In this document: piece by piece, positions 12,990-51,926 of the stretch | Layout: the number at the start of each line of letters is the position of its first letter | Position numbering within the stretch: the stretch's first letter is position 1 | From: Tubiluchus corallicola | Taxonomy: Eukaryota; Priapulida; Priapulimorpha; Priapulimorphida; Tubiluchidae | Reading direction: 5' to 3' | NCBI GenBank assembly: GCA_030141605.1 | Contig: JAQGDQ010000357.1 | Location: 178,686-242,685 of the forward strand | Length of the DNA stretch: 64,000 nucleotides | Notes under the pieces: model-generated | The model's input: only the letters and a program-made list of their open reading frames with translations | What the model was told of the DNA's origin: nothing | The model's database searches: none | Translations under genes and position numbers: made by a program

Positions 12990-15175
12990 GATTAGATTCG
13001 CATTTTAACAATTAAATGTTGTCTTGTAAATTAACAACAGAGTAAAAGTGTTTCACCTCACATTTCAACTGCAGCGACTTGGCTGCCATTTCAGCGTAGT
13101 AGACTGTACACAACATTATGACCAATAGGATAACAATAAACAATATTGTGACCAATAGGATTACAATACAAAACATTATGACCAATAGGATGACAGTACA
13201 CACAGTTTCTACTAGAAAGCACATTTTTATGTTATACAATTAACTAGTAAAATGCTTTGAGCTGCAGTACTATTGTTTAGAAGAACTGTGCGATAGAAGT
13301 GTTGTATCACAGTTACACTGCAAAATTAAGTCATAAATTTTAGCCAATCACAAATGTTTCCTAATGTGGTCAAACTGTGTATTACATATTTACTCTAAGG
13401 CAAAGCCAATAAAACTTGGCATCAGTAGTGCTATTAGGTATTCTCACTCGATCTTGAAATTGACTAATGAAAGTTGATAGGGTCTTATATTAGGTAGGGT
13501 TTTTTCAGTCAGAACATTATATTTCAAGGCTGCTGAATCAGCCAAATTACAATTAGTCGTGGGTGGTACTGGCAGAAGAAAGAGCCATTATGGGATCTTT
13601 GACTTTGAAATGCTTGAATTTCACTTCAAGGTCTATAGAGTTATAATATGATATACATGTCCAGAAAGTTTTGGTCATGCTACTAAACACTTAAAGGGTT
13701 GTTATGGGAAATTATCTTACAAACCTAAGCACTTTCAAATAAGGTTACCCATGCCCTAATTCAGATTAATTAACATCAGCTCAGAAAATTTTGCTTTTAC
13801 TGGTTTTTGAAAGTGAACTCTTATATATTCGAGAACCGGATCAACATTTTACCAGTGCAGTTTACGAATGCTGTGCAATACATTTCAATGGCAAGCTCCT
13901 TTTTGTGGTCAATATTGATAACATGATGCAGATGAATGACGAATCACTACATTTTTTTCTTTTCTGTACAGGTGTTTAACAGGAGCAGGTGTTTTTGCAT
14001 TCCAATGCAATCGAGCAGAGGAATTATTCAACATTCTTCAAGAGTGCATCCAAAATGCAGGTCCTGCTCAACAGGAAACCATGGAAACCAATCTGGCTTC
14101 TCGTAGCACCCCAAATAGCAGACCAGCTTCAATATCTGAGAATCCATCTACTGCTGTGCCTGCACTGCCTCAATACCAGCCAAATGGTGGACTGACGACC
14201 GGTACTGTCGTACAGACTGTGAGTAACATGCCAGTTCCGAGTCCGCAACAAGTTGTGCGTGGCATTCACATTGCACCGCAGAACAGAGACGATGCTGTGT
14301 TGCCACCGCTGCCTCAGGATATTGACGTGGGACATGCGGTGGCTTTGGCAAATTATGTTAATGAAGAGGTATTTTCCTCGAACAGTCCGAATAGTCCCAC
14401 GAGTCCGACTCAAATTCATAATTACGTTAACACACCTGCTGGACCGCAAAGTGACACAGAAAGGCTTCGAAATAGCAGTGATGCTTTGAGTGATGTTGCA
14501 CGTCCCGACAGCGTCGTCAGCGTGAGTAGCCACACCAGCAGTTTTGCACAGCAAAGAGAGAAGAAAAGCTCACTTAGTAGTTATACACAGCAACAAATGG
14601 TTATGAACAACAGCAGATCCTCATCAACTGTGGTACAGTCTGCTCAGACCTCTCAAGAATCTGTCATACAGCGTGCTAGGGAACAGTTTGAAATGTTGGA
14701 TAGGGCTGCTGTTGACGACGTGTTCCTTTTTGAGCAGCGCGAGGATGCGCAGCACATGTACATGAACGTGACGCCTGATGTGTTTCCAAACGGTTTCCAC
14801 CAATCCGACACTGAACGTTGTTATGCCAATGTGCCGTTGGGTAATAAAAATGGTGTCGGCTTAGCAGACTTATCGCCAACATTGCCTTTGTTAGGTGTAC
14901 CACCTCAGGACCACCAAGTTAACTACATTGTACTAGATTTAAGTAAGAATGGCCAAGGATCATCAGAACAACCAACTTGCTCCACAGCCCCAGTTTTGGG
15001 GTCTTTTTCTGAACCTAATTCACCTAACGCGAGAGGTTCTGCTGGAGAAGGGTATACCGTGATTGATTTTGATAGGACAGTCGCATTGTCGAAATCTGCT
15101 AATCCCCGTCTCCACGACGACGATGGCTCGTCAAGAAAAACACGCCATAACAGTACAATTACAAGTCCATTTTAA
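12510..15175 (+). CDS. FRS2: FRS2-like FGF-receptor substrate (PTB adaptor)
   Basis: Two coding exons: 12,510-12,739 and 13,972-15,175 (phase-2 junction), giving 477 residues. The start MGCVNSK is an N-myristoylation signal (Gly2) next to a cysteine, as in vertebrate FRS2/FRS3, which are anchored to the plasma membrane. An IRS-type PTB domain fills about residues 10-112: LRRYGFDDEQEVFSFESGRR in exon 1, then CLTGAGVFAFQCNRAEELFN after the splice. The low-complexity tail carries four YxN motifs (Grb2 SH2 type; Tyr205, 228, 340, 361). It ends with two SHP2-type motifs, YIVL at Tyr395 and YTVI at Tyr438. Vertebrate FRS2 also has four Grb2 sites followed by two SHP2 sites. In that family the PTB domain binds the FGF-receptor juxtamembrane segment and the phosphotyrosines recruit Grb2 and SHP2 to drive Ras-MAPK signalling. 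Orthology to FRS2 versus FRS3 cannot be resolved; in invertebrates a single gene is expected. Confidence 0.93.
12948..12989. repeat. (TTA)n microsatellite
   Basis: About 14 uninterrupted TTA units within the only coding-region intron of the FRS2-like gene. Confidence 0.95.
13111..13200. repeat. Three exact-length 30-bp tandem units with CCAAT motifs
   Basis: Units at 13,111-13,140, 13,141-13,170 and 13,171-13,200 each contain 'gaccaatagga' at the same offset. Each is 30 bp, differing only by substitutions. They lie in the FRS2-like intron (12,740-13,971). The minus-strand reading frame across them is an artefact of the period being a multiple of three. Confidence 0.9.
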
Positions 15176-18475: not shown

Positions 18476-21400
18476 ATGGACCAAGAAATGTTTTTGGAAA
18501 TAGCGAACGAGGTGGAAAAGTTGGAGATGTTTCCGTATTTTGAGATAGCACATTATGTTTTGATGTGCATGTATGTTAGAGAGGATGTACAAGCAGGTAA
18601 CTTACTGTATCAATTAGAATGCTTCCCTTGCTTATTACACGTTCATTGTCGTCGCTTCTGGGTTGGTCTGGTGAAAGTTTGAATATCATGAAGAAACACA
18701 CACTTAAAGTAAATTTTGTCCGCATTCTCCACCAACTGGAAAACCTGGTCTGTGCATGCAAAATTTCTAGGTTCACATTTGCGAGTTACGAAGTATGAGA
18801 CACCGAAACTCAGATTTGGCATTTTTGCACATCTTGGCAAAACCGAAGTCGATGTAGCGCGCGAATAGGAGTATTATTCTGAGCTGGAAAAGAGAAGAAT
18901 GAAGGATAAAGTGTGATTCAAAAAATAATTACGTAGCTATTACCTGCTAAAATGCCTTGCAAGACGATGTGATTAGTGCCCCAAATGTTATTGTTAGTAT
19001 TTTCGAAAGCAAATTAATAAATTATAACATTGTTGAATCCAAACATTCATTTATCGAACTAACTGCAAATATACATAAAATTATGTGTTGTTTGCCTCAG
19101 TTTTTGTTTAGAAACTACTAGTTTAGGAAATCAAGCTGGTTACTAGTGCCGACTATGATCATTTAATTTTAGCATATTAAAAGAGGCTGACTTAATGACC
19201 TTTTGATCGGCTCGCTATCCTCTGTCCGTTTTACATTACTAGCAATTAGGCTGTATTTACCTATATATACTATTCAACTACTGCATCCTTACAGACTGGA
19301 AGTGTTTACTGTACATTTGTAAATTGAAGAAAAAATAAATTTCAATTCAATTCAGCGCTCAGCGCCATGTGGCCAGAGGAGTTATTAAGTTTGAGAGGTA
19401 AATTAAGAAAAATATTGATTACAAAGCAAGAACTGTGTTTTATAAAATGTGTAAATGCTTGTGAAACCTGAATATAAAATACAAAAGACCATTGAATGAA
19501 AATGATTATAATTACTACATTGTATTGACTAGAACATACTTAACTACAATGACATTATCTTCTTCTTCATGACATTAGTGACAATTCATATCTAACCAGA
19601 AATAACATTTGTTAGGATATTAGGGGTTATTTTGCAGTTAGACTCCCAGGGATTAATACATGAATTATGGCAGAATTTAAATTATTTTAAGAAGTTGGAT
19701 TGTTTGCACTCAACGACGATGCCTGCATTATGTGTATCCAGAAATAAGCTAAACTGCAAGTGGTTTGGCAATTATTCACAACGTTCCTGAGCTGTGTTAA
19801 TATTAAAAAAATATATTTTTATACTTTTTATTTCAAATCTGTTCGAAAAATTCATCTGTTTTTAACCACATAATTTTCAGAACCAATTAGACAAATAGCT
19901 GAATAATGAAAATGCTAAAATGACTGCGTGCCAGTGAGGTTTTTGTCTTGGAAGTTTTAATTGCAACGTCTCTCTTGCAAGTCCTTACTGGCTCATAGTT
20001 TGTGTGGTCCTAACCAATCCGTCGATAGATTCTAGTCATTGTTTAACATAAATAATTACATTTGTTAACTCTGGCTTTTTGCTATTATAATCTATTCTTG
20101 AGTTGACGTGAGCTAATTTAATTGATCAAATAAAATAACTTTGAGAATTTCTTCATCAGAGTAGAGTTGCACTGACAGAGGAATTTGAAAAATTAACACA
20201 CAACCAATTGGAAAAAGTAATCAACCAGTTACTGCTGATTAATTCGTTGATTATTTAAAAAAATTTGGTAGACCATTCTGTTGAACCCTACTCTTTGCTT
20301 TAATTTTGTGCAATATGTAAATAAATTGTTAATTCAGTATTGAAACTTGATTTTGAATAGCCGACAGAAACACTGTGTCATTTCTATGTTTTTTCTTTAC
20401 TCCACTTTCGTCATCTGCTTTTATTACAAAAACACGAAAACTACTGGTTTTGTTTGTTGCCATTCTTGATAATGCCTTGTAGCTTAAAAAATTAATGGTG
20501 AAATATAGTAAAACAAAGCACAATGTTACAAGCTTGTGTTTTGGGACACCTTTGTTTTCAGTAGGCACTGTGTGTGTAAATAGAAAGATTTCTAGATTTC
20601 TACTGCCGCCATTGTGCGTAACTCGCCAATAAGTATTACATGAATTTACTATCGTAATTCAAGCTGCAAAAAGGTTCAAAGATATTCATTTGTTTAATTA
20701 TCAGGCTTCTTGGCAGAGTATTTTTGATATTTTTAGACTAGTAGACAGTATTTGCAAAAATTGGTCAATAAACTGATTACTAGAGACATAATCGGTAGAT
20801 TACGGATTACTAGAAAATTGTCTGTTATTTGTAAAAACTTATTAAATCAGTGCACCTTTACATTTGAAAGTACCCTCATTGTGTAATTGTGGGCCTACTT
20901 TTTAATATATTTAAGGTACTGAAACTAGAGTACTTACATGTGTATAAATTATACCACGCATGTAGTTTAATTTATGATTATATACTATTCTTGATCTTGA
21001 ATGTCATTGCTCTTGCTACTGCCACACAAGCTGGGTACATCATGTTTATGTTTTATATTCTGTATTTTATTGAGATGTTTTATTTTGTAACACTTCCTGA
21101 TTGAATTAATGCAGTGAATTTAGTGTAAATTTAAAACTTTTTAATATTTCATTGTTAGACAAATACAAAAAAAGCTGTCATACACAGTTACTTCTCAATT
21201 TTATATCCTGCATTTATAAGCTCAAGCACTTGAAAATTGATTGTGAGTTACATCAGAATTTTTTTATAATTTATTTAATTTCGTATTAAGGAACTTTTAG
21301 CCTAATTGTAATGAACATCTCATCTCTTAGTTTATTGAATTGATAATCCCTCATCCTAAAACAACCAAACACATTTGGTGCTAGCTGCTGCACAGTCCTC

Positions 21401-24400
21401 CCGGGCCAGGAATCAAATAGCTCTATACTGTTCTGTGTTAGAGAGGGAAGCCTCTTCAGCCATGGCTATTTTGAGAATTATGGTTTCCCCGTTGGCATTG
21501 CTCTACTGTACATGTTGTCTTAAGTCATTTATTAGCTTCGCCTGTTGCCAAATCATATCGATTTAGAAAGTGGTTTTTCTAGGTTGTAACTGATAATATT
21601 GATTGAACCAAACAAATACTTACACTTTTATTTTAGGTTGGGTCTACATTTATAGTTGTTCTGTGAAATGTGATAATTTTCTGTTTTTTGTAAGTTATGT
21701 TTCAATTACATCTAAATAGGTTGAGTAACCACAAATTTCGAGACACAACAATCTGTTGTTCTCATTTTATGTGCATATTCCTTGTTATGTTACAAAGTTT
21801 TTTAAACTTGAAGAATCATATTGCCTGGGAGTCACTGGATTCAAGGGCTTGTTATATTTTGTAGTCTGTAATATGAATATTTTTTAATTTATTAGTTTTC
21901 AGTATGAAAGAATAGCTGTAACTCTAAAATTAATTATATCAAATTATATAAACTAAATGTACACATCTGTCAATCTTATTTAGTTTAGTCATATAGAACC
22001 TGGCCAAGCTTTAGTCCAATAATTTAAACCAATAATGTTTAAGGATCCCTATATTTATATATATATATATATGTATGTATACATGTATGTAGGGATACGT
22101 ATATATCCCTTAAACCATCTAGCTGGTGAGAACCCTATCCTTTATTGCTGTTTTATTTGATTGACTTGCAGATTCTATAGTAGCAGCGTAGATATAAATG
22201 TACACGTAGAATACAACGTATTAGTTTTCAAGAACTAAGCAGGTATTGTCTGCCTAATGCATACGGGGTTAATGTTTCTGTACTGAAGTTTATAAATGAC
22301 TTACACACACTCGGTGTAAATCATAAGAACATGATGCTGTTGAAACTGGTGCCTCTTGGCATATTAGGATCAAATTAAATAAACACTTTTCTGTAATATT
22401 TCAACAGTGTTAATGATCGTTTTTTTTCTTGTCTCCAGGCACTGCAGTATTTTCCAGGAAACATCCGTTCGCATGCTGGCTTTCTAGCATGATGATGGTA
22501 TTTGCCGGCGGGATTATGACGAATTTTTTGCTGGGTGAATCTGTGCTCACACCGTTAGCCGATCACGAACGACTTGGGCTAGCAACGATATGCTGGTGAG
22601 GCTGGTTCAATGCTTATTGTTTCTCAAGTTTATATTTATAGAAGTTTAAGAAATCTAGAGATCAAAAATTGGATGCCCGAATATTAAAATTATGGTTTTG
22701 TCTGTTGGAATTTGCCATCAAATTTTCTTATTTATACAAAGGAGATAAATACATATACATTATACATGGTACACAATTATTTTTATAAAGCAAGCTTGCA
22801 AGTATTTTATTTTGCAATTGTGGAGTTGAAACTTTTAAAATTTTATAAAAGTGACTGCCAACCTGAAATATATATAGCTCACATTAGCTATAGCTTTTTG
22901 CAAAAGCCTGAATTTTGCAGTTTTTTAAATCATTGCAGAATGAAAAGTAGCTGTACATTTTAAAACTTTTGACAACTATAAATGTAGTGAGTATTGACAT
23001 TGGACAGTTTCTGTAAGTTATCATGATTCACTTGTATGATGGACTCACAGCTAAATGTTTTTATTACAAGATGAAGACTTGTTTCCCTTGGCCATCGTCA
23101 CTACCTAGAAATCATATAATTTTTCTTCACCTTTTTGAATGATATTCCAGCTAATCAAGACGCATTTATTGCTCATATAATCCCTGTCTGAAAAAACAGA
23201 TTTTATTCCTTTTTGACGATAAGACTCTGTACATCGCAGATGGTAATTACTTGTTTCATTTGTCGTTTTGCCTGCAGCTAGACTAAGGAATGTGAAATTT
23301 GTCGTATAAGGCAGAATTTAAGGAATGGTAAAGTAAAAAAGCTGTAAGCTGTTTTACCAAACTAATGACCAACATGTACATGCTGCAGGTACTGGAATAT
23401 GTGGTGATTAGAGCCACTGTCTAGTTATGGCTGTAGCGGTACTATATTAAATATTAGCCATGGAACTTTCATTTGCAAGATAACTATGTTCGAGAAACGA
23501 TTACTCGTGTGTTTGACTCGTAGTGAAACAAGAATGGGGTTGTTAGAATATATTGGTTTCCGTTAGTCCTGAATTCGTACTGCAGAAAGGATATTCTGAT
23601 AAGGATAAGGACAGCAGTAAGCCGTTAGTCACTTATGTTGAGTATCAACTTTAGTGGTTTGAAATTTTGCATCATGGGTTCATGGCTGAGTGTTTTATGT
23701 GAGTGGCTGTCGTGGGTTCAATACTTGATTTAGGCAATATCATACATAAACTTTTTATGTCCTCTGCTGGTTCAGTGGCTTATACTTAGACTGATTGTCT
23801 TGATAAAGAGCTAGGCTGCAATTACAATTTGTAGGTAGTTAGCTATGTTATGTAGTCAAACTTGTTTTATCTCATATTTTTGCATTTTTTACAAAGTGCA
23901 AAAGGTTATCCTGTCTTGCCTTTCTCAATGTCAGTTTTTATGGAAAGTCCGGCTGGTATGGAGGTGAAGCATATTCCGTATCCGCAGTCTGGGATACTTC
24001 ACCATGATAGTTTGGTCTGAAGCTTTCAAGTAAAGGCAACAAGCATCTAGAGTTACCCAGAATGTATTCTCAGTTTCAAGTGCGATGAGCACAAGCAGTG
24101 GGTTCCTATTCTCATAGCTCTGACTTGGTTTTAATAGCTTACAGACTTTTGTAGTGAGACCTGGGAAGGGGGCTATGATCAAGGTAAATAAACAGTAAAG
24201 CAATGTTCTTGTTGAATTTCACATAGCAGAAAAGGTTTTCAGAGATGCATTGTTGTGGTCAGTTTATTTGGAGTGAACATGTTCGTTGAGTGTAAACGAT
24301 TGTTTCGGCTATCATAGTCATTTTCAATACTATAAATTAAGCCAAAAAAGGAATAATTAGTACATTAATGATACTAAAATACAAAGGCATAAAGTGTCAA

Positions 24401-27400
24401 TACAAATCAACAGATTAGAATTTAAATTGTCAAAATAAACGTGGATGTAACTAGTTGAAATTGCAAAGAAATTCACCTTATGTGAAATTCAAAGTAATGA
24501 CAGCAGTATTTCATTATGTAGACTTAGACTAATTGTTTACCTTGTTATGACCTTTTCTGGATCTCATATAAGGTGAAATTATTTAATTTCTCTGCAATTT
24601 CAACTAGTTACATCCATGTTTATTTTGACAATTTAAATTCTAATCTGTTGACTTGTATTTACATTTTGTGCCTTTGTATTTTAGCATCATCATTGTACCA
24701 ACTATGCCTTTTTTGCTTGTTTTTAATGTGTATCGAAAATGACTGTAATAGCCAAAACAATTGTCCGTGCTCAGTAAACATGTCGATTGGTAGAGGCTGG
24801 CTCTTTCACATGTTTTCATTTGGAATGATTCCTTCAGACCATTTTGGTCTGAGAAGGGCGTGCTTCTTCGCTTCATGCGTAAAATGACCACCAGTTCATA
24901 TGATAATTGATGTATTACTTGTTGCCAAAGATGCAGCTGGAGTGAATGACTCGTCTGAATGAAGCATCTCTTAAGCACTTTACAAATTAATACTTAATGT
25001 GTCAATGCCTAATGTTCATTGACCAGTGCACAAATCACCACATTTCAGATGCTTTGCGGGCTGCCAGTAATTCGGTGGCTTGAATTACAATATGATAATA
25101 GTGCCATATTGGTTCACTTTATTTTATGTAAATCTAATACAGGATGTTGGAAATTGCATGATGAATCTATTTTGTACTGTTAATAAGACAGAGTACAGGA
25201 AGTCACTGAGCTCTTCTAATAGCTTAAAATTTGTTGAAAAAAGTGTTGATGGAGGCTTGCTAACTTTAGTTAAAGTCTTGGTTTAGTAATTAAAGCTGTT
25301 TTGTTGTAAATGCTATTTTAAACTCTGAGAAATTCAGAGTATTGATGTAAATTATTAGTTCTACTAAATTTTGCAGTAAATGATAATATGATTTTTAAGA
25401 TTTATGATTAATATAAGGCTGGTTCAAGAGTTTGTTTTATATTTCTTTTTTTAAAAAACTTGTCTTGCTGTGTTTTCATATCATTTTAAAATTCTATATT
25501 TTGTACGTATGAAATTATGAATTGTAACTCTTCATATATAAAGTTTGAGCATCTTTAAAGCCCATGATTTTTAGCAGTCGTAGTTTAGAATGATAATTTT
25601 TGATGACCACATCTTTTTTCTAGGTTTCTCATTAATTATGCACCGTTTGATTTGGCATATAAATTATGCAAGTTTGCACCGCTTTTCACGGCCCTGCAAT
25701 TAGTGGTGCAGGTCCGCCGAACGAAGAGAATAACCATCGGCATCGACATGGGCCTAGCAAAAACTGATAATAACATTATTGCCATATGTTGTGGTGTAAC
25801 TTTTGGTAGGATATGTTAAAAATTACATTGTACATGTTTTGGCAGCCATTTTGTATTTGCTAGAAAACAGCAAAAGGAAAACTCATTGATTTACTGTTAG
25901 AGCATATCATTAGTACTGTAAAGCAATTTATTAAAGCGATCTGTTAGTTTAACTTAAAAAAGTATTTTTTCACAAATTATTCTTATTAAATTGCATTTAT
26001 GGTTACTACTATAAAGATTTATTAAAAAATGTCAAAAATTGACAAATATTTCTGTTTTCAACAAAGAAAATCGCTGTCAAATTATTGAGGCTCAAGTAGT
26101 ATTTCCTTAAAGAGTGCAGCATAATTAATAGATCTGTCTAAAGTGTCTGTGTATAGATAATTTCATATTTTATTTAGCTGATAATAGTTTACTACATGTT
26201 GCATCATGACAGCAATGGTGGAAATCTTATGATGTCACTTGCTTGCATTCTTTCTGGAAGCTGCTTCTTTGCAGATTTTTCTCAGTTGCACATTCTCCTG
26301 TCTTTTCTTATTAACTATTCTGGTGATTCGTCGGTAACTAAGCCTTACCTGTTTTTCTCAGGTACGTAATCAACTACACCCCGTTCGATTTGTCCTACAA
26401 GCTTCTCAAGCTGTTACCCTTTAAACTAGTCATCTGCTCTATGAAGGAGATTTTCAGGGCTAAAAAGGTTCATATAGGAGTAACCAAAGCTATGAGCGTG
26501 TATCCAGATGCCTACTTAATCATGGTGACGGTCGGGGTAGTCTATTGTGAGTTTTAATGCCCTCTTGCATGTTAGTTACTGCGTCTGGGCAGACTGTTAT
26601 GTGTTTGATGCAAAATTTGCACTGCTGCAATGCTTGTTTTTAAAGTTAAATTAGTCTGCTGGTTTGTTACTTGTTTAAAGTTAGATTGTGCTGCTAGAAT
26701 GCTACCTGTGCATATAAAGCCAAGTTTATGTTTTGCATTTTAGGCTAAAATTGTTCTTTTGAAAATGTTTGATCACAGTGAGTATTTGCTGCTAAAAAGG
26801 TGTGCTATTTTGTTGTTGTTTGAATGGCTTGTAGCTGTGTCTGAAGCTGATGTCTTAGAATAACTGCAATTAAATTGTTTCTGGCTAAAACATTTTTTTG
26901 TTTTCAATTAGGCTTAAGACTAGCTTTTTTATCGAGAAAGGCATACAAATTTACAGGTTAATCCTAACTTAAAATATCGTCCGTGTTTGAAGAGCTTTGT
27001 GTTGTTCTGTTGGAATGTAACGTTTGATGCAAATTTTAATGTTGGCAATAAAACTTGGCATTTCATCTTAATTAGCCATGCCTGAGTGCTTTGTGGTTGA
27101 GCATGTCATTCGTAAGGTGTGTTTTTTGTGTGCGTCTCTCTAGAATTTTGATTTAAACTAAATCAACATGTTATACTTGTTATGCAGTTGATAATTTGGG
27201 ACTGAACTTGCATGCTCTGATTTCATTTTTACATGCTAAATTATATTCTTAGAGTTTGTGTATTTGCAGCTGCTGCATGTTTGATGACGAAATGCAGTGT
27301 TAAAAAGTTACACATTTGTATTTAGTGGTCTGCGTTTATTAACCTGTTAAAACTTTATAGGTTTGAGACTAAATTAAGCTACTTTGCTCACCTGCGTTAC

Positions 27401-28901
27401 TACTGTCCTGCTTGTTATCACCGCATTCTATAAAGACCTTCGTTATTTACACCTGCGTCTTTCAACGAATGCCACCGGCTACTGATGTGGCTTCCTTAAG
27501 TAATCATAATTTAGCAGATTAACATCCGATTCATCCACACAAAGTTATTAGTGATTTGCAGTGGACATTGGTCATTCATGAATGTTAATATTATTTTCCG
27601 TTTTTGCTAAAATATTCATTAATTTAGCATGTGTTATGTTTTTCGAGTTTCTACACAGCTGTGCACGTTTAAGCTTTGCTTATGTCTGTTCTGTACTAAC
27701 TATTGCTATCAATAGAAATATTTTTGAACTAACTTAATTTTAAAACCTAGATCAGCCTTGTGGGCTCGTGGCATCTACATGTTTGTGTTGTTATTAGACT
27801 GATGTATGTTGAATTTCGCTCCTTCAACAAATTTACTTAAAAAGTCAAAATCAGTTATTGATTTCAATTTGTTTTCGTTGACTGAATGGAATTCGCAACA
27901 AAGTAGAATTGTTGAAGGACAAAGCACAAAAACGTACAGTGAGCGTGTTTCATGTGTTCGCAAAAGCTGAAATTGAAGCACAGTGCTATTGTACAACATT
28001 CAGTGTCATATACAAAAACTCGACAAATTGTAAATTTAAAATTCAAATTTCAAGTTTACAGTTGTGTTCTCGCATGAGCTCTCAAACGTGTGCACTATGT
28101 TACAACCGAACACTTCTTAATTGAGAGGTACAGCACCTGTTCTGTGTGCAACTCGTTTCCAAAATGCAGGCGTTAGTGCCCCTCTAACTAACGCATGCAT
28201 GTAAGCGGAATGCATGTAAGAGCAAAGAGCTAATTATGCGAATACGCAATTGCATTTCTCTGGTAATAAGTCTAGAAAAGTAGTATGTTCTCTTTCAATA
28301 TTGTTTGGAGTAGATTGTTTTGAGTTATAGTTTAAGATTAGATCCAATTTTCCTTTAATATCTAGTTGTTTACTTGCACAGTGGCTCACTCTCAGGAATA
28401 CTTGAAATGATTATGTGTGGGTTAAACCATTGAAAGAGAGTCTCGTCACTTCAAATAAACGTGCTGGCAGCAAGTTTCTTACAAACGTCATTTGGAGATC
28501 TCATCTTATCTCTTCACTTGGTTTATTAACCTTCAACCAAGGGCATTTCAGTCCCGCTGTTTGATTTAATTTGAATTGATTGTGTTACTGCGTTACTCCT
28601 GTGCCAATCAATCAACTTGGAAGAAATTTTGTTTTCAAATTAAAAAAAGTTATTAAGGCATTTAGTTTTCGCACTGAAATGCTGCTGATTTGGTTTGTGA
28701 TGTTAGAAAAGTCAGAAGACTTTGGAGTCAGATTTTTGAGTCAGTATCATTAATTGTTTTTGGAAATTAGAATTTTACAAATTCCTGGAATTAAATTTTT
28801 ACGTTTTTTAATTGAAATTAGATTAATTTAGTTAGTTTTTACTAATTTTCATTAACATCTTAACATCGGTACCACCAGTCCTTCAGTTTCACTAGTAAAA
28901 A

Positions 28902-28933
<32 letters not shown>

Positions 28934-31613
28934 CATCATTATCGTCATCATCATCATTATTATTTTAGTTGAATGTTAAATAATTTTTTTCAACATCATA
29001 TTACATGTCAATTTGGTGGACACTGTCTGTGTACCATTTAACCAAGATTAGGTAGTTGCCATTTGTGAAAATCATTGCCTGTTTGTTTTTTGGGTTTCAA
29101 ACAGTGTAACTTATTTTTCTAAACTGTCATACGAAAAACGCAAATGAATTTCATTGCAGTTGTGAAGAACAAGCTATAGAAATTTGCCGGCATTATTTAT
29201 TGGGAAACTTTTGAAGGTTGTAAAAAAACAACCTCCTGTAATACTGCTTCTATTGCATTCCAAAATGGAATTTTTGTTTCTGATTTTACTGCTTTTGTCG
29301 TGCAGCTGGTGCTAAAGTGTTTTTGTTTTTGGTTCAGGGTGTGTGTGTGTGTTTTCTGGGAAAATTTTAATTGGTAAATGGAATCCAAATCAACAGCATA
29401 AGGTGAAAGCTTACCATGTCAAAATGACCTGTCGAACCTGCATCAGTCATCTAAGAATGCCCTATAATGATAAAACCAATACTTACAAATAAGATGTTTG
29501 CTCACTGTGCATTTGATGGCATGTTTTCCTTAAGATATTCATATTTAATTGAATGTGGCATTGAAATTTGTTGCTGTGAGACATTTTATTTTGTTGCGAA
29601 TTCCATGACAATAAGTAAAAAAAATTACAAAGTAAAATAAAGTATGCATCACGGTTATTTCTTTAATATGCGATTCTCTACTTAAATAATTTCATTATTT
29701 TTGATGTTTTTTTAGTGAATCATAATCATTTAAACTCTTACTGAATTAAATTGGCACTTTTCGGAAATTGTCGTAAAAACAAATTTTAGATGTTCTGGGA
29801 ACTCCAGGTTTTTCAATTAGGCTGGTATTTATTGTTTACGTTTTTCTACTGGTGTAATCATAGCATAAATATGCGCATGGCGTCGCACGTGGAATTACTG
29901 TTTCTGTCTCTATTTGTTTGTGCAATGTTTATAGACGTTCTGGCGGTGCCAGAAAGCTGATTGATATTGAAATTGAGTTCCTTTGGTTATTTTGTTAATA
30001 TAGCATGCGGTAGCAACATGATCAGGACGTTTGAGAGGCTCGTCAGGGGCGTGTGGACTCCAGGACAGCATGAAGCGCTTCAGCCCACGTTGTGAGTGAT
30101 ATATCACTGATATTGCTTAGTATATTATTGTAGTTTGATGTATGGTACAGTGCCTAGCATAATTTGAGATGTCTTATACGCTTATTGAATTATTAAATTC
30201 AGATACAGTAGTTTCAATTTTAATTTCTATTTACTTGTCTCATACTGCAAGTTTACATATTACAAAGTTTTAGTAATGGTTAATATTGTAGCTAAAAAAG
30301 TGACAGTGTGGAGAAAGACCCTATGGTCACTGCGTCCACCAGACACTCAAAATACCATTATATTAGTTTTTGTCGGTGGTGTTAATAAGCAGCTTGTTGT
30401 ACAGTATCTCTAAATATTGTTATTAATTAGAATTAGGTAGAATTCTTGTTCAACAGCAACACATTATAATTTATGTAGAATGTATAAGGAAAAAACTAAT
30501 GCGATAACATGTCAATGATACATAGCAGAAGCAACAGTAATTCTAACCTTGATAAAACTCAATAAAAACATTCAAATTACAGAAGATTTTAACTTTTAAA
30601 ACAGGCAAAAATGCATTAAAATTGGCAAAATAGTCAACAGCATTGTTACAGCAGAAGCAGAATATACAAAAAAGTAGTAATAGAAATGACACTGTGTATT
30701 TCTGACTTGAATGTAGATGGTTGCACAGCCAACTGTCTAAACTAACACTTCCGTAACCTGTGTGGCAATGTGATTTGTAGAATAAATCAAGCAATATGAC
30801 GATTGCAGGTGCAATCCACTAACACCAGTAAATTGTCTGTTGGGCAGCATGTATCTTATGTAGGAGAAAATTTTTGCAGAATGTGAACGTGAATGCAGAA
30901 CATTAAGGCATCTTTGGTTTCCAAGAAGCACCATACTGATTTGTTTTGGAAATGGTGTTTTTCGATTTTGTGGCAGAATTATGTTACATTCACTTATGGT
31001 CCAAAATGAGAATAATTATTTTATACTTTTGTTCTGGTTGAAGTTGCTAAAGAATTTTATCTCCTACTCTGCGAATCCAAGTTAAGCTAAAGACTGCACC
31101 AATTTCTCTTTTCACATGTGTTATGGTATTTTGAAAAACACCACTGACACTAACACTGCGTCATTATTATTTTTGTTCTATAAGTTCTGGTATTCATTTC
31201 ATAGCAATTATGGCAGAAACTTTGTCATAATTGGAAAGTTATTCCTTTTGTTAAATGTAATGGACTTGCTGTTAAGATTACCACTTATTTTGTTTCGTTC
31301 TTTAATTTGCAGTGTATCGAAAGCCTGTTTGGTAGCTGCCATACTATTTGTCTTGGAGAAGAAAACAGATTACATAAACGTTCCACACTCAGCTGTGTAT
31401 CTCGGAGTAGTCGTCTTTTTCGTGTATTTCAAGCTTTCGTCGCTGTTACTGGGAATTCACGACCCATTCGTACCGTTTGAGAACCTGTTCTGTGCCATTT
31501 TCCTTGGCGGGATGTTTGATGCTCTGCGAGACGCCATACAGTCTACAAAAGAGAAGGCAGCCAAAGTTGACGCAAAAAACGGCAAGGCGGAGAAGGACAA
31601 AAAGCGAGATTAA
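18476..31613 (+). CDS. TMEM38: TRIC intracellular cation channel (TMEM38-like), alternative exon 3
   Basis: Coding exons: 18,476-18,596; 22,439-22,595; then either 25,624-25,805 (3a) or 26,362-26,546 (3b); 30,004-30,091; 31,313-31,613. All junctions are GT-AG and in phase. The products are 282 residues (3a) or 283 (3b), close to the ~290-300 of mammalian TRIC-A/B. Family landmarks include MFPYFEIAHYVL near the N terminus, HPFACWLSSMMM with FAGG and LLGE in exon 2, INYxPFDLxYK and the KExxRxxK segment in exon 3, and CGSNMIRTFERLVRGVW in exon 4. The last exon gives KACLVAAILFVLEK and ends in a lysine-rich cytosolic tail (KAEKDKKRD). TRIC channels are homotrimeric ER/SR monovalent-cation channels that supply counter-ions during Ca2+ release. 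Whether it is TRIC-A or TRIC-B-like cannot be told here. Introns 1 and 2 are several kb and contain the inverted repeat at 24,291-24,774. Confidence 0.95.
22050..22098. repeat. (TA)n and TATG-type microsatellite
   Basis: A short run of alternating TA followed by 'tgtatgta/tacatgta' words in TRIC intron 1. The sequence is partly self-complementary. Confidence 0.7.
23665..23830 (+). repeat. Possible tRNA-derived SINE
   Basis: The sequence has an A-box-like 'tggctgagtg' (about 23,680) and a B-box-like 'gggttcaata' (about 23,715), spaced as in a tRNA promoter, followed by unrelated body sequence. It is too diverged to be a functional tRNA. It lies in TRIC intron 2. Confidence 0.35.
24291..24774. 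repeat. Long inverted repeat (~200-bp arms, ~75-bp loop)
   Basis: The left arm (about 24,291-24,487) is matched by the reverse complement of the right arm (about 24,563-24,774). The inner ~75 bp of each arm (24,404-24,478 and 24,580-24,655) is nearly identical, including 'caacagattagaatttaaat' and 'ggatgtaactagttgaaatt'. Identity falls outward but can be followed for ~200 bp. It lies in TRIC intron 2, about 0.9 kb upstream of exon 3a. It may be a foldback element or two inserted copies in opposite orientation. In the transcript it would form a long double-stranded hairpin. Confidence 0.85.
25624..25805 (+). CDS. TRIC alternative exon 3a (divergent version)
   Basis: 182 nt, acceptor TTTTTTCTAG|G, donor TTTG|GTAGGA. 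It enters in phase 2 and leaves in phase 1, exactly like exon 3b. It encodes INYAPFDLAYKLCKFAPLF and then VVQVRRTKRITIGI. It aligns to the same segment of TRIC as exon 3b, at roughly one-third identity. The family's KExxRxxK motif reads VQVRRTKR here: the first lysine and the glutamate are replaced, while the arginine and the last basic residue remain. The codon spanning into exon 4 becomes Ala. Confidence 0.85.
26362..26546 (+). CDS. TRIC alternative exon 3b (canonical version)
   Basis: 185 nt, acceptor TTTTTCTCAG|G, donor TATT|GTGAGT, phase 2 in and phase 1 out. It encodes INYTPFDLSYKLLKLLPFK followed by MKEIFRAKKVHIGV, retaining the complete KExxRxxK motif implicated in TRIC gating and lipid binding. 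It is clearly closer to vertebrate TRICs than exon 3a. The codon into exon 4 becomes Ser. The intron separating 3a from 3b is 556 nt. Confidence 0.93.
26547..30003. other. TRIC intron between exon 3b and exon 4
   Basis: No further alternative exon copies and no coding segment seen. A (TTA)n/(TCA)n microsatellite occupies about 28,901-28,968. Confidence 0.5.
28901..28968. repeat. (TTA)n / (TCA)n microsatellite
   Basis: A run of ATT units passing into ATC units, in a TRIC intron. Confidence 0.9.
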
Positions 31614-38785: not shown

Positions 38786-41700
38786 TTACAACACGGCAAC
38801 ACCTGCATCGCACCTGCCAGAGGGTATAGAAGCCACGGATAGCCATGACTTCGTGTGCGGATCATAACAGTCCACACTATCGACTGTAGTTGGCACGGAG
38901 AAAGTGTTCGCAGCCGTGCGACCGCCGATCACATACAGAAATCCATTGAGAGCAGCAACTGACGCACCTGCTCGTCTTGTACTCATTGGAGGAATGGCTT
39001 CCCAAACATTCTGCACAACAGAAGATAAATACCACATTGAAACCAAAATATTTGTAATGTAAGACATTTACATTCAGTCCCTAGTAGCATGTGTGACAAA
39101 ACAGAAACAAAAGATATTAATTACTCTACAGTTCATGTTGTAGACTATGCTTAATTGGACTCCAGTTCTCTTGTCAAATGTATTAAATCAACAGAACCAT
39201 AACAGTAGGAGGCTCAGAGCATGTATACGCTAATACTGCACCTACATCAATATTTTGAGACATCTAGTAAGCATAATATAGAAAAAACTCCTAGTAGATA
39301 AATATCTGTCAAGCTCTTGTAGCTTTTCCCAAGGCTGCTGCTCTATGAGACTCCTCTCTAACTCTAAAGTGCAACCTTATGCATTCAAAAAGAATGCCAG
39401 TAGCCACATTTGAAGTACCTTTTGCTGTACAGATTCAACACTTGAAAAGCTTCCATAAATAAAGAAAAAACTTTTTTGAGACAAAAATGGTGCCAAAATT
39501 GTGTCCCACATTTCTTTAGATGATTAGGAAACTAAACAAGATGGCCATCGCCCCACGCAAATAATAAACGAAAGCATGACACTGGAAGTATTTACTACAA
39601 AAAGTGTGATAAAATTATTAAAAAATGGTAGAAATGCAGTTTCGCTTCACTGCATATCAAATACCCAGATTGAGAACACACGATGTCACAAATGTGGTAT
39701 CTGCATAAAAGTGAAAAACGATACACAAATCTAGTCCTTAACTATTTCGTAATCCTTATTCTATTTATCCTTTTTTCTGACACAACTAAGATAACTATAA
39801 AATGACTCACCTCTTCAATGTTATAGCTCTCCACTGAGTCTAAAGCACCCTCTGATTCATTCCACCCTCCAACAGCATATATATGTCCCTCTAATGCAGC
39901 TACCCCAACATGGCTCCTCCTCGTTTGCATTGCCATCAATCTCTGCCACTCCGTTGTAACAGGATTGTAGCTATCGGCAGATTTCATCTCTGAACCAAAT
40001 TCATTCACCCCTCCGATTATATAAATGAGACCTGTCAGACAATGCAAATGACTTTTGTAAAACTTTGCTTCAGTGAGAGCAGTTAATAAACTCACTTTGG
40101 GATCGAAGTGTTTTGACCGAATTAACTGACTGAATCCATTAGCTGATGTGTGTTGTATTGGCGGTATAAAAGTACGAGTCATCACTCTTCACCTTAGTAT
40201 ACACTGCAGGCTGTGAGAGCTTAAAATGTTACTTACACTTCTGATTTATTTTTCAACTCTATGCTCTTGGCTGCGTTATGAAATTTACGTTTGTAAGGTC
40301 GCAAAGAAAACTGGCAGATTACTACCGCAGCATCGGTGGCATAACAGCAACAGTTAACTGATTAAATGTTCTGTGAGAAGCAGCAAGGGCTTCAAAAGGA
40401 AACCAATAGGCATGTGATTAATTGTTCAGCCTCCAAAAATTCTCTGGCAACGAGGTTAATTGCAGTGCATGAACAAGTGACAGATTCAAAGCAAAAACGC
40501 CATGCTATAGCATATGTGGAACAAACCTACTTAAGAACAAAACGGCACTTAACGTGATTGTTTCTGCCTAAATTATAATGCACAAAAACCCATAAAGATG
40601 ATATAAAAAAAGTAAAAACTCTTTTATCACCACAAGTGTCTTAGTTTAAATACATGAAGCAAAAATATTGACTCAACAATTACTATTGTTCATAATGTAG
40701 ATATCAATACAGATAATAAGTATCAGACGTTTTTGAGTCTATCTAATAAACGGTGCCCAAGGTAGTATGTGAAAAACAAGAACAGTGAACAGGACATCAT
40801 AATAATGAAAACATGTCTGTTAACAAATACTGGTACATTAGTGCATAAAACTGCAATTTTAAATTTATTGATACGCAAGTTTAAAACTAAACGGCAACAT
40901 TACAAGTTAATACATTAGTCCTTATTTCAAAATTGCACGATAGGATGAGTTACGAAATGTTGAATGTGCAATGAACATTCATATTATCATTTTTTGCTAA
41001 CATATCAGAATTTCACTATGCTTCAGAATTTGTGTGATTTTCTAGTACTTCACAATAAATCTGTGCACTGACTCCTGATTGAAGTCACATGATGATTTTG
41101 TTATGACGTTTTAGTTAATTTTAGTTAAACTTCTTACACATACAAGTACCTTCAAATGCAACTATGCCCATCGCATATCGAGGCGTGCACATTCTCCCGC
41201 AAATTTTCCAGTGATTAATGTCCGGATCGTACACTTCGATCGTGTTTCCGCTCTCCGTGCCCACCCATCCTCCAAAAGCGTAAATGCTATTATTCACGGT
41301 ACAGGCGCCCAAGCCACACCTGCAAGAGTTTAAAGGAAAACAGGATGATTATTCATATCCTGCCCTATTCTGAAGTACAGTAAGTCCTCGCTTAACGATG
41401 CTAATGTGTTCCAGCAAAACACATCGTTAAGTGAAACGATGCTAAACGAAGAAATTATGTAAAAGCATTCAGTTGCACTCCAGAAGTGAAAATCAAAATC
41501 AAAATCCACAGTTCTACATTACCTATTTGATTGATTAAAAAGCAAATTAGTAATTAAGTGTGAAAATTAAAACCTAAAATTCAAACATAAGCCCTTCCTC
41601 CTCTGGTTGCTCTTCTCCATCCATTTTGTTCTCATTTTCTTTCCTATTTTGTTTTTTTTTTCATAAAAAATTTAGAGTTGGTTGCTTAGACTTTTTCCTT

Positions 41701-44700
41701 TTTTCAGCCAGCACTTCTTTATCACAATTCATCTCATTTACTACGCCGTCTTACTTCCGAACTGAATTCATTACCGGGGTCGTTTTCTCTGTTATTTTCG
41801 TCACAGCGAACATGCAAATGAGGAAGATGCAACAATGAACTACATACCTATGTAACAGGAGAACATTTTGTCAACTAGAGAATTTTGTCTAAATGTGAGT
41901 AATCAATGAGTCATCGTGGAATGACTGCTTGCTGTCAGTTTAGTTGGGGAAATTATTAGCAGCGTATTAACCATAATGGTGATCTCAGTTAAGTAGTGGG
42001 CTTCACTTACAGAGAGCAAAGGCAGTAAACAAGATTCAGTGTTTAAAGAAAGGCTGGCTAAAAATCGTAGTTAAGATAGATAAAATATATGCATTATTAA
42101 CACATAAAGATATCCCATATTGATAATAAAAAGCTCCCCTAAAAATTAGTATTAGTGATTCCACCTAAAAGTAAGCTACAGTGACAGTTTGAAACATTGT
42201 GTTTTTCCTTGTTTTTAATTATATACCGTATTTTCCCATGTATAAGAGACCCTTTTTTGCTCAGAATTTTCACTTTAAAAATAGGGGGTCTCTTATACAT
42301 GGGAGTAAGTCTGACACCAACTGGCAAGGTAAGAAAGCCAACCCTTGGAGAAGTCTGCAGCTGGGTCCTCAAGGCATGGAATGGTGTAAAGCCAGAGGTC
42401 ATTATTAAATCTTTCAAGAAGTGTGGCATCTCCAATGCCATGGACGGCACAGAAGACAATGCCATTTTTGAGCAGAGTGACTCCTCTGATGATGAACTGG
42501 CTGGAATTGCTGAAGGTCTGACTCCAGTTGATATTTTTGATGAGAGTGATGAGGAATTTAATGATTTCTATGATGAATAAAGTTATTCATTACCAAAAAA
42601 CTTTTTTCCAGAATTTTTGCCTAAAAATTGAAGGGGTCTCTTATACACAAGGGTCTCTTATACATGGGAAAATACGGTAGATTTTTAAAATTTATTGTTA
42701 CTCTGTTTGGCATTAAGAATTAATTGTCTCTGTTACATTAACTAACATTTAACTGCATTTCAGTTTTAGAAGCATTAAATATGTGGATAATTAAAAAAAA
42801 ATCAGTATTTACAACGCAGGAGATTCAAAAAAGCAAAACCGTTTCTAGCAAACTGCTAGTACTGCCATATGACTGATGTATTTTAGTTTACCTGAAACAA
42901 GCTGTAAAACTCAAAATATTGGACACATTTTTTTAATTAAAATTAAATTGTAATCTCATCATTACCACAGAAGTACTGCTGAGTGATCAATCAGTAAAGT
43001 CATGTTGTTTTGCAAATTCTGGTATGAGGATGATCCATTTCGTAAGGCAAAAATTCCTTAGGGGAAAAATTTGTGTTTAAGAAACCAAATTGTCAAAAAA
43101 TCAATAACTCCTCACCTGGGATTTGTAAGACTCGCTATCATTTTCCATACTTTCTCCTCGGGGTCGTACATTTCACAGTTGTCATATATCAAAGAGTTGC
43201 TCTCACCACCAATGGCAAAGATCTTCCCTTTCATGGTGGCGACCCCTAGTCCACTACGGGCATAGTTTAGTGGAGGCAACAGCGACCACCCTTGTTGCAA
43301 AGAATCAAACATGGCCATATTGCCAAAAACAATACTGTCGTGCCATTTAGCATTCTCGGGGCGGGAGTAGCCACCTGTGAGAAAAACAGAACTATTACCA
43401 TTCTTGTATTGAACAAATTCAATGAGTGAACAAACATTGTTTTTGCTTTTCCTATACTGCACTTGAGGAAGCCAGTTTGAGATAGCCTTGCAGTCAACAA
43501 ACCATGCTAATATATTTCCCGGAAGTCTTCAGGCCAATATATTGACAGTTTGATAGGTATATATGAAAGAAACCAAAACCAAAAAACAAACTTTTTGAAA
43601 CTTACAGTACGATGAGTGTTGTAATTCAAGATTTGGTAACAAATTTGTTAATCAGGAGCAGATTAAAATTATAATAAAACTTGCAAATTATTGCAAGATA
43701 TCTTTTTTATACAATTTAATTTCTGAACAATGCAGAGAAATCTGTAGCACCAAGTTATTTCAGTTTTGAAAGAATTCTGGGTAGGAGATATCATTAGACC
43801 TATCTCTGGCCTGTACTAATATTAAAATGCAATAAAACAGTTTCTCAAACAAACTAATTGCTTAGCCAGAGGAGTATAAGTGACATCCCACTAAAGACCT
43901 AATCCAGACATGATTGTTAAGCTGCGCTTCAAAAACACATGCTGCTAGTTTTAAAGCAAAATTTTTGTACCCTACAAACAGCAATCGACTGTTTCTTATG
44001 CAATTAATATGTGTGCATAGAAAGAGACATTTTTAGCCTTAATTGGCTAGTAAAAGCATGGGAATTTTGATTTACGGTTCACGGAGCTGTTTTGTAAAGC
44101 AAGCCTCCCTTTTACTGCTTGCATACAAAATATGTTAAAAAGTTCCTAATCAAAACAATCAATGTATGGTTTGTAGCAAACTAATATGCACATTCAGGGT
44201 GAGAAACTTTGATGACACATTTTAGACCTGCATGTATTTGACCACATTTAAAACAGTTTGAATAATCTGGGTGCTTGGCTGTTTCTCCCACCCATTCCCT
44301 CTAACCAGTCAAAATTACCAAGAGCTCATACACAGTAAGCCTACTTTACAATCTTACCTATGACATAGATGTTTTTCCTAGCACACTGCCGTGGTTGCCA
44401 GTTTATTGGATTAATTTTTCCTAGTCTGGTGTCCCTTGCAAGAGAAAACTCCTTTTTATAATCCTGTAAGAACAAAAAAGTTATCAGTTTTAAAAGGTGA
44501 AAACACGGACCATGCAGATTTTACAAGAAAACATCAATTTTCTACCAAAGCAAGGTGTTGTCTGCTGTACTCATTTAGTTATTCATTTCCTGGTTCAATG
44601 TAGTAATGCTTTCACTCTGCAAGCTGAGATACAGCACTCGTTGGAAGCACAGTGCAGATATATGTAGGAGGACTGCTACCTAGTGCATTACCAAAAATAA

Positions 44701-47700
44701 TCCTCCAAGACGAGACACTGAACTATCTGAGTTAAGCACCTTTAGCAGTGCTTGGATGCATATAGTACACAGACACAGACAGTACGACAAATAAAACCTC
44801 TTAGATGCTGATCATCCATCCAATTACAACCAGGCTTGATTTTGCTTAACTACGGTCATTGCTGTAGCAAATAAAATTACTAATTTGATCACTAGAAAAA
44901 TATATAAATAAAGATATTCATAAATTGCCTGGACTTCGTGTCCAAACTTGCTAAGTACTAGTTTACAGTGTGGTAGGAATTAAATCAAATTATCAGTATG
45001 TTTCAATAGAGAAATCCCATTCGAAAATGGTCCGATGGACTGCAATTTCAAAGTAAGCAAAACAACAGCAGATGTTAACGGAAGCAAATGGGTTTTCTAA
45101 CCTCATTTAGCAACCAAGCCACCCCCCTGCTTCAGGCGCCTTTGTCCTGTTCTGCAGCAAAGAGGTAAATTCTATTCCATTACAACCAAACTGAAGTTCT
45201 TTCTTTATACAAGACAATCTTCACATACATGTATGGAAAATAACAAGGTCGGCAGCCACTGTAACTGGAGAAAAACTTGGGACTAGAGTGCTATATACAA
45301 ATTTATGGAGCTAAACTTGAAACATACCAAAGCTCACAACATGCTCATAAGTAAATAAATGACGACAAACCTCACACATCTTCTTAAGAGCAAACTTCAG
45401 GGTGAGGTCCTCAATGGTCCCAATGTACCTGTCCAGTTCGGAGCGAGAAATGATCGGAATTCGAACGCATTTCATCAGCATAAACACTGAACGCCGTCGA
45501 CGTTGAACGTCATGCAGAATCCAGCTCATCGCAGCTTTAAACACCTAATATACAAAGACAGATGACTAAATAGCAATAACCGGGTATATTAACACATACT
45601 ATATACTAAGACAGTGTTGTTGTGAATGACTAAAAAAGTGCATTTAATTTGTAATTAGTTTTCTAATCTGTAGTAGATGACTTCTGTCTATGTGTTACAC
45701 TATTCTAAATGTGGGCTTAACCCAGTAGTGAACAGTCTGTTCTATTTTTTCTAGATTCTGTTCTCGCTAGTTGGCTGTTACCCAAACTGATATGCAGACA
45801 TCCTTTTGCATATCTTTTTAGTCTTCTACATCAATAAACGTTTAAAGGTATGTCCTACTGTTTATACCTTTTGTCATCACAACACTAAGTGTATAATATT
45901 TTCATATTTCTTTAATGTTTTACGTAATACACTTGCTTATTAGATATAGTAAATCCATACATTTTACAAACCTGCAACTTAGTGAAAAAATCGATGAAAG
46001 AATAATTTCAATTATTTAGCAAAGAAATAACTTTACTTGCTAAAATCATCTCAGCAAAAAACTCGTAGTTTCAGTTTTTTGCATTCTGTCTTTCATACAG
46101 TATTTATAGTTTGAATCGTTCCCTCCTGGTTAAAATACGGCTAACTAATGTCCAGTTTTGTCTAGGAAAATATAAGAATAATTTTCAAGTGACTGCATGA
46201 ATAGTTCACCATATTCACTGAGTTAACTTCTTGTAATATGGGACACCAATTTTAAGAGAATGAATAGAACAAAATTGGACTTGAGCTTGCAGCTAGCATC
46301 AGCAGACTAATACTAAGAGTATTTTCCTAACCTCTGGTACTTTTTTGCAAGATTCGTTTTTCTGCTGTTGTGCGTAGTTTATATTACTATTTTTATATGG
46401 ACAGTCTTTTATATTTCTTCTTTCCGGCCCATTATATGTAGAATTCCCTACTACATAATTGTTTTACTGATAGCAAACTTGCCTGCTCTAAAAGAATTCA
46501 ACAAGAAAAGACTACATGACACTATTGAAAAAAGCATTATCACCGATGCTAGCCAAAAAATGCTTCTGTCTTACCTCGTGAGCTCAAAAGGTATCAGTAG
46601 GAATAATTTTTTATAAAACTTTGTGAATTTTTTGTGCAATATTAAAAATCAGTTGAAATCAAAGTTTATTTCCCACTGGTTAACAGTATTATTTTAAATT
46701 TTTTTAATGCACATTTTTCCACGCTTTGTTTTTTAGTTTTTTGTTCACGTTACTAAATTATCGTATAATTATCCATTATCGAATACTCTTCTTTGTACGA
46801 TATGAACATATGTTCTGATAATTATGGTATAAGCGGCAACACTACCTGGCCATTAATATGCTAAAAATTTGACAGAAAATACCATATTTTTCAGCCTCCA
46901 ATACGTAATCAGCATCATACAAAACTGCACCCCGGCCGAGAGTTAGATGTAAAAAAAGATGGCTGCATCCTCGCCAAAACAACACGATGTTATATTTATT
47001 ACTGCGTCTTGCGTTTTAAATTAAAAAATACACTATTACACAACTGAGTCAGGTAAGTATATGAATGTACAAAAAATTATAAAATTACCAGCCGGGTGTG
47101 CAATAAAAAATATTATCATGGGCGATTAGACGGAAACAGAAGTATTTTTATTGTTGGCGTGATGTAAATAAAACAGTAGAAATGTTGTCACAGTTTCCGG
47201 CGTTGTTATGAATCTGAATTTTGAGAGATCTATAATTCTGGTCAGTGACAGCTGACAGGAATTGAATACATTCATGACATGCTACCTGGAACTCGTTATC
47301 AATTCTGAGTTTCTCGCTCTTCAACATTTGTGACAAATCATCCTGACTTAAGCAGAAGAATTCATCCTCATGGATAACATCCTGGAAGTTGGCATGAATA
47401 TATGACTTTGCCACATCCTTTAACTCTTTACATGCATGAGCATCTCCGAATAAGTAAATTCCTAAATGGTAAAAAACAAATTTTGTACCACTGTTTTTTT
47501 GGCAGAAAAAAAAGTTGATAGCAAATTTTAGTATGTTTGTAAACGAAAGTACAACACAGAGTTATATTAGTGCCAAAAGAATTTTGAGAGACAATAGAAC
47601 ATTGCTTGAACTATCAATAGTTTGCCAGGCAAATTATTCATCATCAAATCCAGGCCAAAGACAATGATGCTTTGATAATGCTTAAATTTCCTTGCTATTT

Positions 47701-51117: not shown

Positions 51118-51926
51118 GACGAGTAGGAGAATACTACCCACTATCTGACATCCATCTGTAGAACATGGTATGTGCTGGTATTAAAGGTTATAACTTTGCT
51201 TTAGAGGAAGTCATAGTAAAATGAAGTTTAAACCTAGAAAATATTTAAACACAAATTGCCAAATTTCAGTGTATGCAAGTACAATAGCTTGCAATTCTAG
51301 CACATAAAATAATCTCTATTATGTATGCTGAGACTGTTGACCGTACAGTAGCGTTACTTTGTCCGTGCCTACTGTACCAACAGAGTATATATATTCTTAC
51401 TTAGGCTTACATATATCCAAAGTCCCAAATTATACAGTAACATCAGATATAATGGATTATGAAAGCTGATTATACCGAACTCGTACTACACAACATTTAT
51501 ATAAAGTGAAATATGTAATTAGATAAATCATAATCAAAAATATAACAAAATGACCATGAACCATTCATGAAAAACCTACTGTACACAGAGCGTGAAATGT
51601 GTGCATGTGGCGATCTCCCACGGCAGATTTGGTAATTAACTTTCCACAACATTGCTTCAAGCGTTTGGTATGAAACTTGCTGTACGCGGCACGACTGGTT
51701 TAAGTGTCAAATCGATTGGGGGTGACTTTTAAGGTATTATTTAGTCCGTAACGTAATGCAACCATAACGTAGGCGATATAGCAGTATATTTTACTTAGTA
51801 GTCTTCTTTGTATAATTTTATTCGTGGTATGTCAAATAAGTGTTCTTGGTAGAGATCGTTCAGTGTTAATTACGTTGCAGGTAGTGACCATTGTAGGACT
51901 ACCGAGAAATCCACCCCAGCTTCAAA
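51118..51926. promoter_or_regulatory. Divergent promoter region of IPP and dehydrogenase genes
   Basis: About 0.8 kb separates the two head-to-head start codons. It contains no coding sequence and is GC-richer with a few CpG steps toward its right half (about 51,600-51,780). A shared bidirectional promoter is the simplest reading. No specific elements are claimed. Confidence 0.4.

Follow-up and report, generated by a model that had tools for sequence, protein, structure and literature searches.

A probable mutually exclusive exon pair, of tandem-duplicate origin, across the KEVxRxxK segment of a TRIC channel gene in Tubiluchus corallicola

The stretch of Tubiluchus corallicola DNA analyzed here (contig JAQGDQ010000357.1, 64,000 nucleotides, hereafter the window) contains a complete TRIC (TMEM38) gene, a single locus on the plus strand at 18476–31613. 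TRIC channels are trimers of seven-helix protomers and conduct K+. The gene has five coding positions, the third of which is occupied by two alternative exons, 3a and 3b, arranged in tandem. Its features, in window coordinates, are as follows:

18476–18596, plus strand: TRIC exon 1, from the ATG, with a frame that runs into exon 2 and an N-terminus that aligns with Caenorhabditis elegans TRIC-B1 (5egi)
22439–22595, plus strand: TRIC exon 2, flanked by splice sites and ending in phase 2; Pfam TRIC positions 2–56, 64.1 bits
22596–25623, plus strand: intron 2, 3028 nt
24277–24783, no strand assigned: foldback (inverted-repeat) element inside intron 2, arms 24343–24473 with 24585–24715 and 24277–24330 with 24730–24783
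25624–25805, plus strand: alternative exon 3a, 182 nt, motif VQVRRTKR; Pfam TRIC, 38.4 bits; codon-position pattern described below
25806–26361, plus strand: intron between 3a and 3b, 556 nt
26362–26546, plus strand: alternative exon 3b, 185 nt, motif KEIFRAKK; Pfam TRIC, 71.4 bits
26547–30003, plus strand: intron 3, 3457 nt
30004–30091, plus strand: TRIC exon 4; Pfam TRIC positions 117–147, 20.6 bits
31313–31613, plus strand: TRIC exon 5, stop codon included; Pfam TRIC positions 147–192, 45.4 bits

The foldback element in intron 2, whose arms measure 131 nt, at 91% complementarity, and 54 nt, is dispersed in the assembly (at least 107 matches, itself included, with 40 of 302 candidates scored) and is probably incidental to the splicing question. 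Elsewhere in the window, an uninterrupted rhodopsin-type receptor frame lies on the minus strand at 58116–59123 (PF00001, 88.7 bits), flanked by two plus-strand fragments of a malate/L-lactate dehydrogenase (PF02615, about 51897–61684), so that the receptor gene may be nested in a dehydrogenase intron. The minus strand at 39745–48433 carries stretches of the Kelch, BACK, and BTB families that likely belong to one KLHL-type gene. An open frame of 411 codons on the plus strand (13940–15172) has no Pfam match; judging by eye, we take it to resemble the C-terminal region of an adaptor of the FRS2 type.

The coordinates, lengths, and phases that the initial annotation gave for 3a and 3b proved correct, each exon being preceded by AG and followed by GT. 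Exons 1 and 2 sum to 278 nt and end in phase 2, and either 3a or 3b exits in phase 1. It had been claimed that either exon joins exon 2 to exon 4 in frame and that inclusion of both shifts the frame, and translation of all four combinations bears this out. With 3a only, the transcript of 849 nt encodes a full TRIC protein of 282 residues, and with 3b only, 852 nt encode one of 283 residues. Double inclusion leads to a stop at codon 156, three codons past the end of 3a, and skipping of both leads to a stop at codon 96. Because the reading frame breaks with both exons or with neither, single inclusion is the sole productive outcome. Such a guard is common: exon lengths are not divisible by three in 377 of 629 human mutually exclusive clusters (PMC5740500, section 7). 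The pair shares the sequence attributes of mutually exclusive exons, namely near-equal length, homology, introns of the GT-AG type, common phases, internal neighbors, and a frame that admits one exon only. No exon was found between 3a and 3b by a TRIC profile search or in the gene model.

The two exons are related to each other and to the TRIC family. Aligned with one codon of gap, they are identical at 20 of 60 residues, which agrees with the earlier estimate of about a third, and their BLOSUM62 score of 99 lies far above those of 2000 shuffles (mean −23, maximum 15). Each by itself matches the Pfam TRIC profile (PF05197, curated cut-off 25.9 bits) from profile position 56, 3a with an E-value of 1.2e-9 and 3b with one of 9.6e-20. 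The GC content of 3a is 0.42 versus 0.30–0.33 across the five introns of the gene, where only 224 of 11204 sixty-codon stretches (2%) are open. The full predicted proteins, isoform A (with 3a) and isoform B (with 3b), cover profile positions 2–192 of 193 with 215.5 and 249.7 bits, respectively. Among solved relatives, both isoforms score highest with C. elegans TRIC-B1 and TRIC-B2 (257.9 and 239.5 bits for isoform A, 282.9 and 260.2 bits for isoform B), and vertebrate TRIC-B and TRIC-A come after these. By profile both predicted isoforms are thus members of the TRIC family, isoform A being one without the animal motif discussed below.

A search of the assembly (343.5 Mb, 2344 contigs) with PF05197 found no second TRIC locus. 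It returned seven places, of which five lie within the TRIC gene (four of them over the cut-off) and two elsewhere, below it. The latter two, on contigs C1937 and C1776, were considered as a possible further gene or processed copy, which could have revealed the exon in use, and were rejected, the matches being below the cut-off and the translations judged by eye to be chance. When the 3a protein was used as the query, the assembly yielded 3a itself, 3b, and one match with an E-value of 0.4 on C2222, and no third copy of exon 3 was established. In a tree of 58 columns 3a adjoins 3b with a support of 60, and none of four placements is rejected (AU p of 0.54, 0.09, 0.64, and 0.39, with replicates too few according to the program's own warning), so that the tree sets no date for the duplication.

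Several other properties of the assembly were recorded alongside these searches. Equal match scores at matching offsets on C2264, C2138, and C1787, and again on C1776 and C2120, suggest that these five contigs are duplicated or haplotypic copies. The homeodomain gives 118 matches, and arrays of both TTAGG and TTAGGG are present. The assembly gave no match to Chitin_bind_4, innexin, or connexin (E 0.001) or to GFP (E 0.01), for which control genomes were likewise silent, nor to COX1 (E 0.001).

By alignment, the alternative exon encodes the counterpart of CeTRIC-B1 residues 102–159 and more, including the KEVxRxxK motif, and with helix limits taken from published descriptions we infer that it holds TM4. 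All four solved animal TRICs that were aligned have K, E, V, R, and K at the motif positions. Exon 3b retains K, E, R, and K, with I for V (KEIFRAKK), whereas 3a has lost the first K and the E, which are replaced by V and Q, keeps the R, and carries a second R where the motif ends in K (VQVRRTKR). As the motif is kept in the structures of both TRIC-A and TRIC-B, the difference between 3a and 3b is not the difference between A and B. Counted from the alignment, the lysine lost in 3a is residue 122 of TRIC-A and residue 129 of CeTRIC-B1. In CeTRIC-B1, K129 and R133 make contact with PIP2.

Earlier work bears on the function of these residues. KEVxRxxK has been called a consensus for lipid binding and a likely source of voltage sensitivity (PMC9899828), the voltage dependence of eukaryotic TRICs rests on lysine and arginine conserved in TM4, and the PIP2 site is at the protomer interface (both PMC11059273); the CeTRIC-B1 trimer is destabilized without PIP2 (PMC5477506). 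In TRIC-A, the K129A mutant is always open and K129Q is mostly closed (PMC7940156). The motif ends in this K129, at which 6iz1 has Q and 6iyu has K. The idea that isoform A might be constitutively open like K129A was rejected: 3a carries R at the place of K129, and permanent opening of isoform A is therefore not predicted.

Splice sites were ranked by means of an approximate weight matrix against all 692 AGs and 879 GTs in the gene. By this matrix, the acceptors of 3a, 3b, and exon 4 rank 8, 2, and 107, and the donors rank 43, 31, and 27, respectively. The claim that both exons have good splice sites needs to be qualified by these ranks, on which the donor of 3a falls slightly short of the 3b donor. 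We speculate that the weak acceptor of exon 4, which is common to both isoforms, leaves room for regulation. Steric hindrance, for which PMC5740500 uses a limit of about 50 nt from the donor of 3a to the branch point of 3b, is excluded because the intron of 556 nt is too long. Docking and selector sequences were sought in three ungapped arrangements, the first of which scanned the whole of intron 26547–30003, and the observed score was reached by 60, 46, and 66 of 100 shuffles. The intron flanks of 3a and 3b resemble each other only in matches of 9–14 nt. With no steric hindrance, both introns of the GT-AG type, and no docking site beyond the level of the shuffles, a choice made by splicing factors would be the reading that fits.

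The divergence of the two exons is distributed unevenly over codon positions. Identity between 3a and 3b at positions 1, 2, and 3 is 25, 38, and 17 of 60, and positions 2 and 3 differ significantly (Fisher p 2e-4). Identity at position 2 was reached by none of 5000 codon shuffles, and identity at position 3 is no better than that of shuffled codons (p 0.29). In a model in which 3a is neutral throughout and 3b changes at third positions only (substitution settings assumed, no indels), six times were tried with 2000 runs each, and at none of them did neutral decay of 3a reproduce the observed pattern together with an open frame more than once. The pattern is therefore a sign of selection on protein, and these sequence comparisons support the view that the 3a protein has long been under selection. 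That selection looks weaker than, or different from, that on 3b. At the 13 columns that are invariant among the four solved TRICs, the family residue is found at 6 in 3a and at 11 in 3b, and 3a equals 3b at 5 of these 13 versus 14 of 44 other columns (p 0.74), with no preference for conserved columns. Changes private to 3a or to 3b number 16:5, 13:6, 15:6, and 12:4 with four outgroups, exceeding 3.84 in three of the four, and on such counts 3a is the faster evolving of the two. Third-position GC is 0.43 in 3a compared with 0.61 in 3b.

Faster change, lower third-position GC, the loss of K and E from the motif, and the weaker donor could all be expected of a dying or dead exon, that is, one that was once used, has lately lost its function, and now enters few transcripts or none. 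A stop-free frame would not contradict this, as it can outlast 0.1–0.2 neutral substitutions per site: in neutral simulation it survived in 1550 of 3000 runs at 0.1 substitutions per site and in about 30% at 0.2, so that a recent death of 3a is possible. The codon-position pattern, however, excludes neutral decay over the whole time since the duplication, and the frame, the phases, and both splice sites of 3a are intact, and we regard such a loss of function as unlikely.

Alternatively, 3a might act as a regulatory poison exon, inclusion of which beside 3b would lower the amount of channel by decay of the transcript. The early stop in the frame of 3a followed by 3b would suit this role, but a poison exon needs neither a TRIC segment, nor the right phases, nor selection on protein, and the protein with 3a only is open and full-length; this function for 3a is accordingly quite improbable. 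Still harder to credit is the use of 3a as an alternative last exon, where transcription would run on unspliced into the 556-nt intron and end at a poly(A) site there, giving a truncated TRIC. Three ATTAAA hexamers in that intron (25930, 25985, and 26021) could be taken as signals, but ATTAAA is expected anyway in AT-rich DNA and AATAAA is absent from the intron. The product would moreover be devoid of the second half of the channel, and the retained donor would be purposeless.

We therefore consider it probable that 3a and 3b arose by an old tandem duplication and are spliced as a mutually exclusive pair, and the likeliest reading is that one gene yields, through such splicing, two channels that differ in their gating by lipid or voltage. 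The initial annotation had already proposed two channel types from one locus; this is partly supported, in that the anatomy fits mutually exclusive exons in every respect visible in sequence, with selection on the 3a protein in support, and both the splicing choice and the two channel products are inferred. In the proposed mechanism, the cell would choose one of 3a and 3b per transcript, and products with both exons or neither would be cleared by nonsense-mediated decay, so that the frame would ensure that every full protein contains exactly one of the two exons, whichever trans-factors make the choice. The choice would exchange, in a counter-ion channel of the ER, the segment that bears TM4. 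Isoform B would be the canonical channel, with the K, E, R, and K of KEVxRxxK, and isoform A would keep the positive charge of TM4 at the gating lysine while its binding of, or response to, a PIP2-type lipid would be altered. Mixed A/B trimers might form if one cell expresses both. More tentatively, the exchange may pair a canonical subunit with one that, devoid of K and E, depends for its gating less or not at all on voltage or a PIP2-type lipid, and mixed trimers may grade the ER counter-ion current by tissue; of this fuller scheme we are less than half convinced.

What is new here, as read from the predicted exons, is that the pair falls on KEVxRxxK, with 3b keeping and 3a losing the first K and the E. 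Since 3a alters these two residues while the protein outside the exon is unchanged, the gene, if spliced in this way, would offer a natural experiment on the motif, making it testable on which of its residues lipid binding, voltage response, and trimer stability depend. We found no report of mutually exclusive exons in TRIC genes in open-licence papers, a partial literature in which the same statement of the initial annotation goes uncontradicted; isoform predictions in gene databases may already list such pairs. PMC10427696, considered as a paper on CG4239, was set aside, as its available passages concern CG42390. A review (PMC11059273) describes invertebrate TRICs as being without the functional diversity of vertebrate TRICs, a view that a splice-swapped gating helix, if true, would contradict.

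Among known systems, the human (PMC5740500) and fly X-chromosome (PMC3228551) exon clusters resemble the present pair in being tandem, internal, homologous, near-equal in length, and equal in phase, in affecting a folded membrane domain, and in having a frame guard. Of the 16180 exons on the fly X chromosome that lie outside the mutually exclusive class, only 90 show the like length, phase, and homology (PMC3228551). The present pair differs from these clusters in lying in a TRIC gene, in having a third of its residues in common, in being known from sequence alone, and in that no competing RNA structure was found. The closest solved relatives over most of the protein, C. elegans TRIC-B1 (Y57A10A.10, 5egi) and TRIC-B2 (Y57A10A.28, 5eik), are the products of two separate genes and both have the motif, whereas here one gene has exchangeable exons and 3a is without K and E. 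Vertebrate TRIC-A and TRIC-B (TMEM38A and TMEM38B; 6iyu and 6iz3) provide two channel types of one family per animal, as is proposed here, but from two genes, both with the motif. If the fuller scheme of exchanged subunits is true, a non-vertebrate animal would gain by splicing what vertebrates gained by gene duplication.
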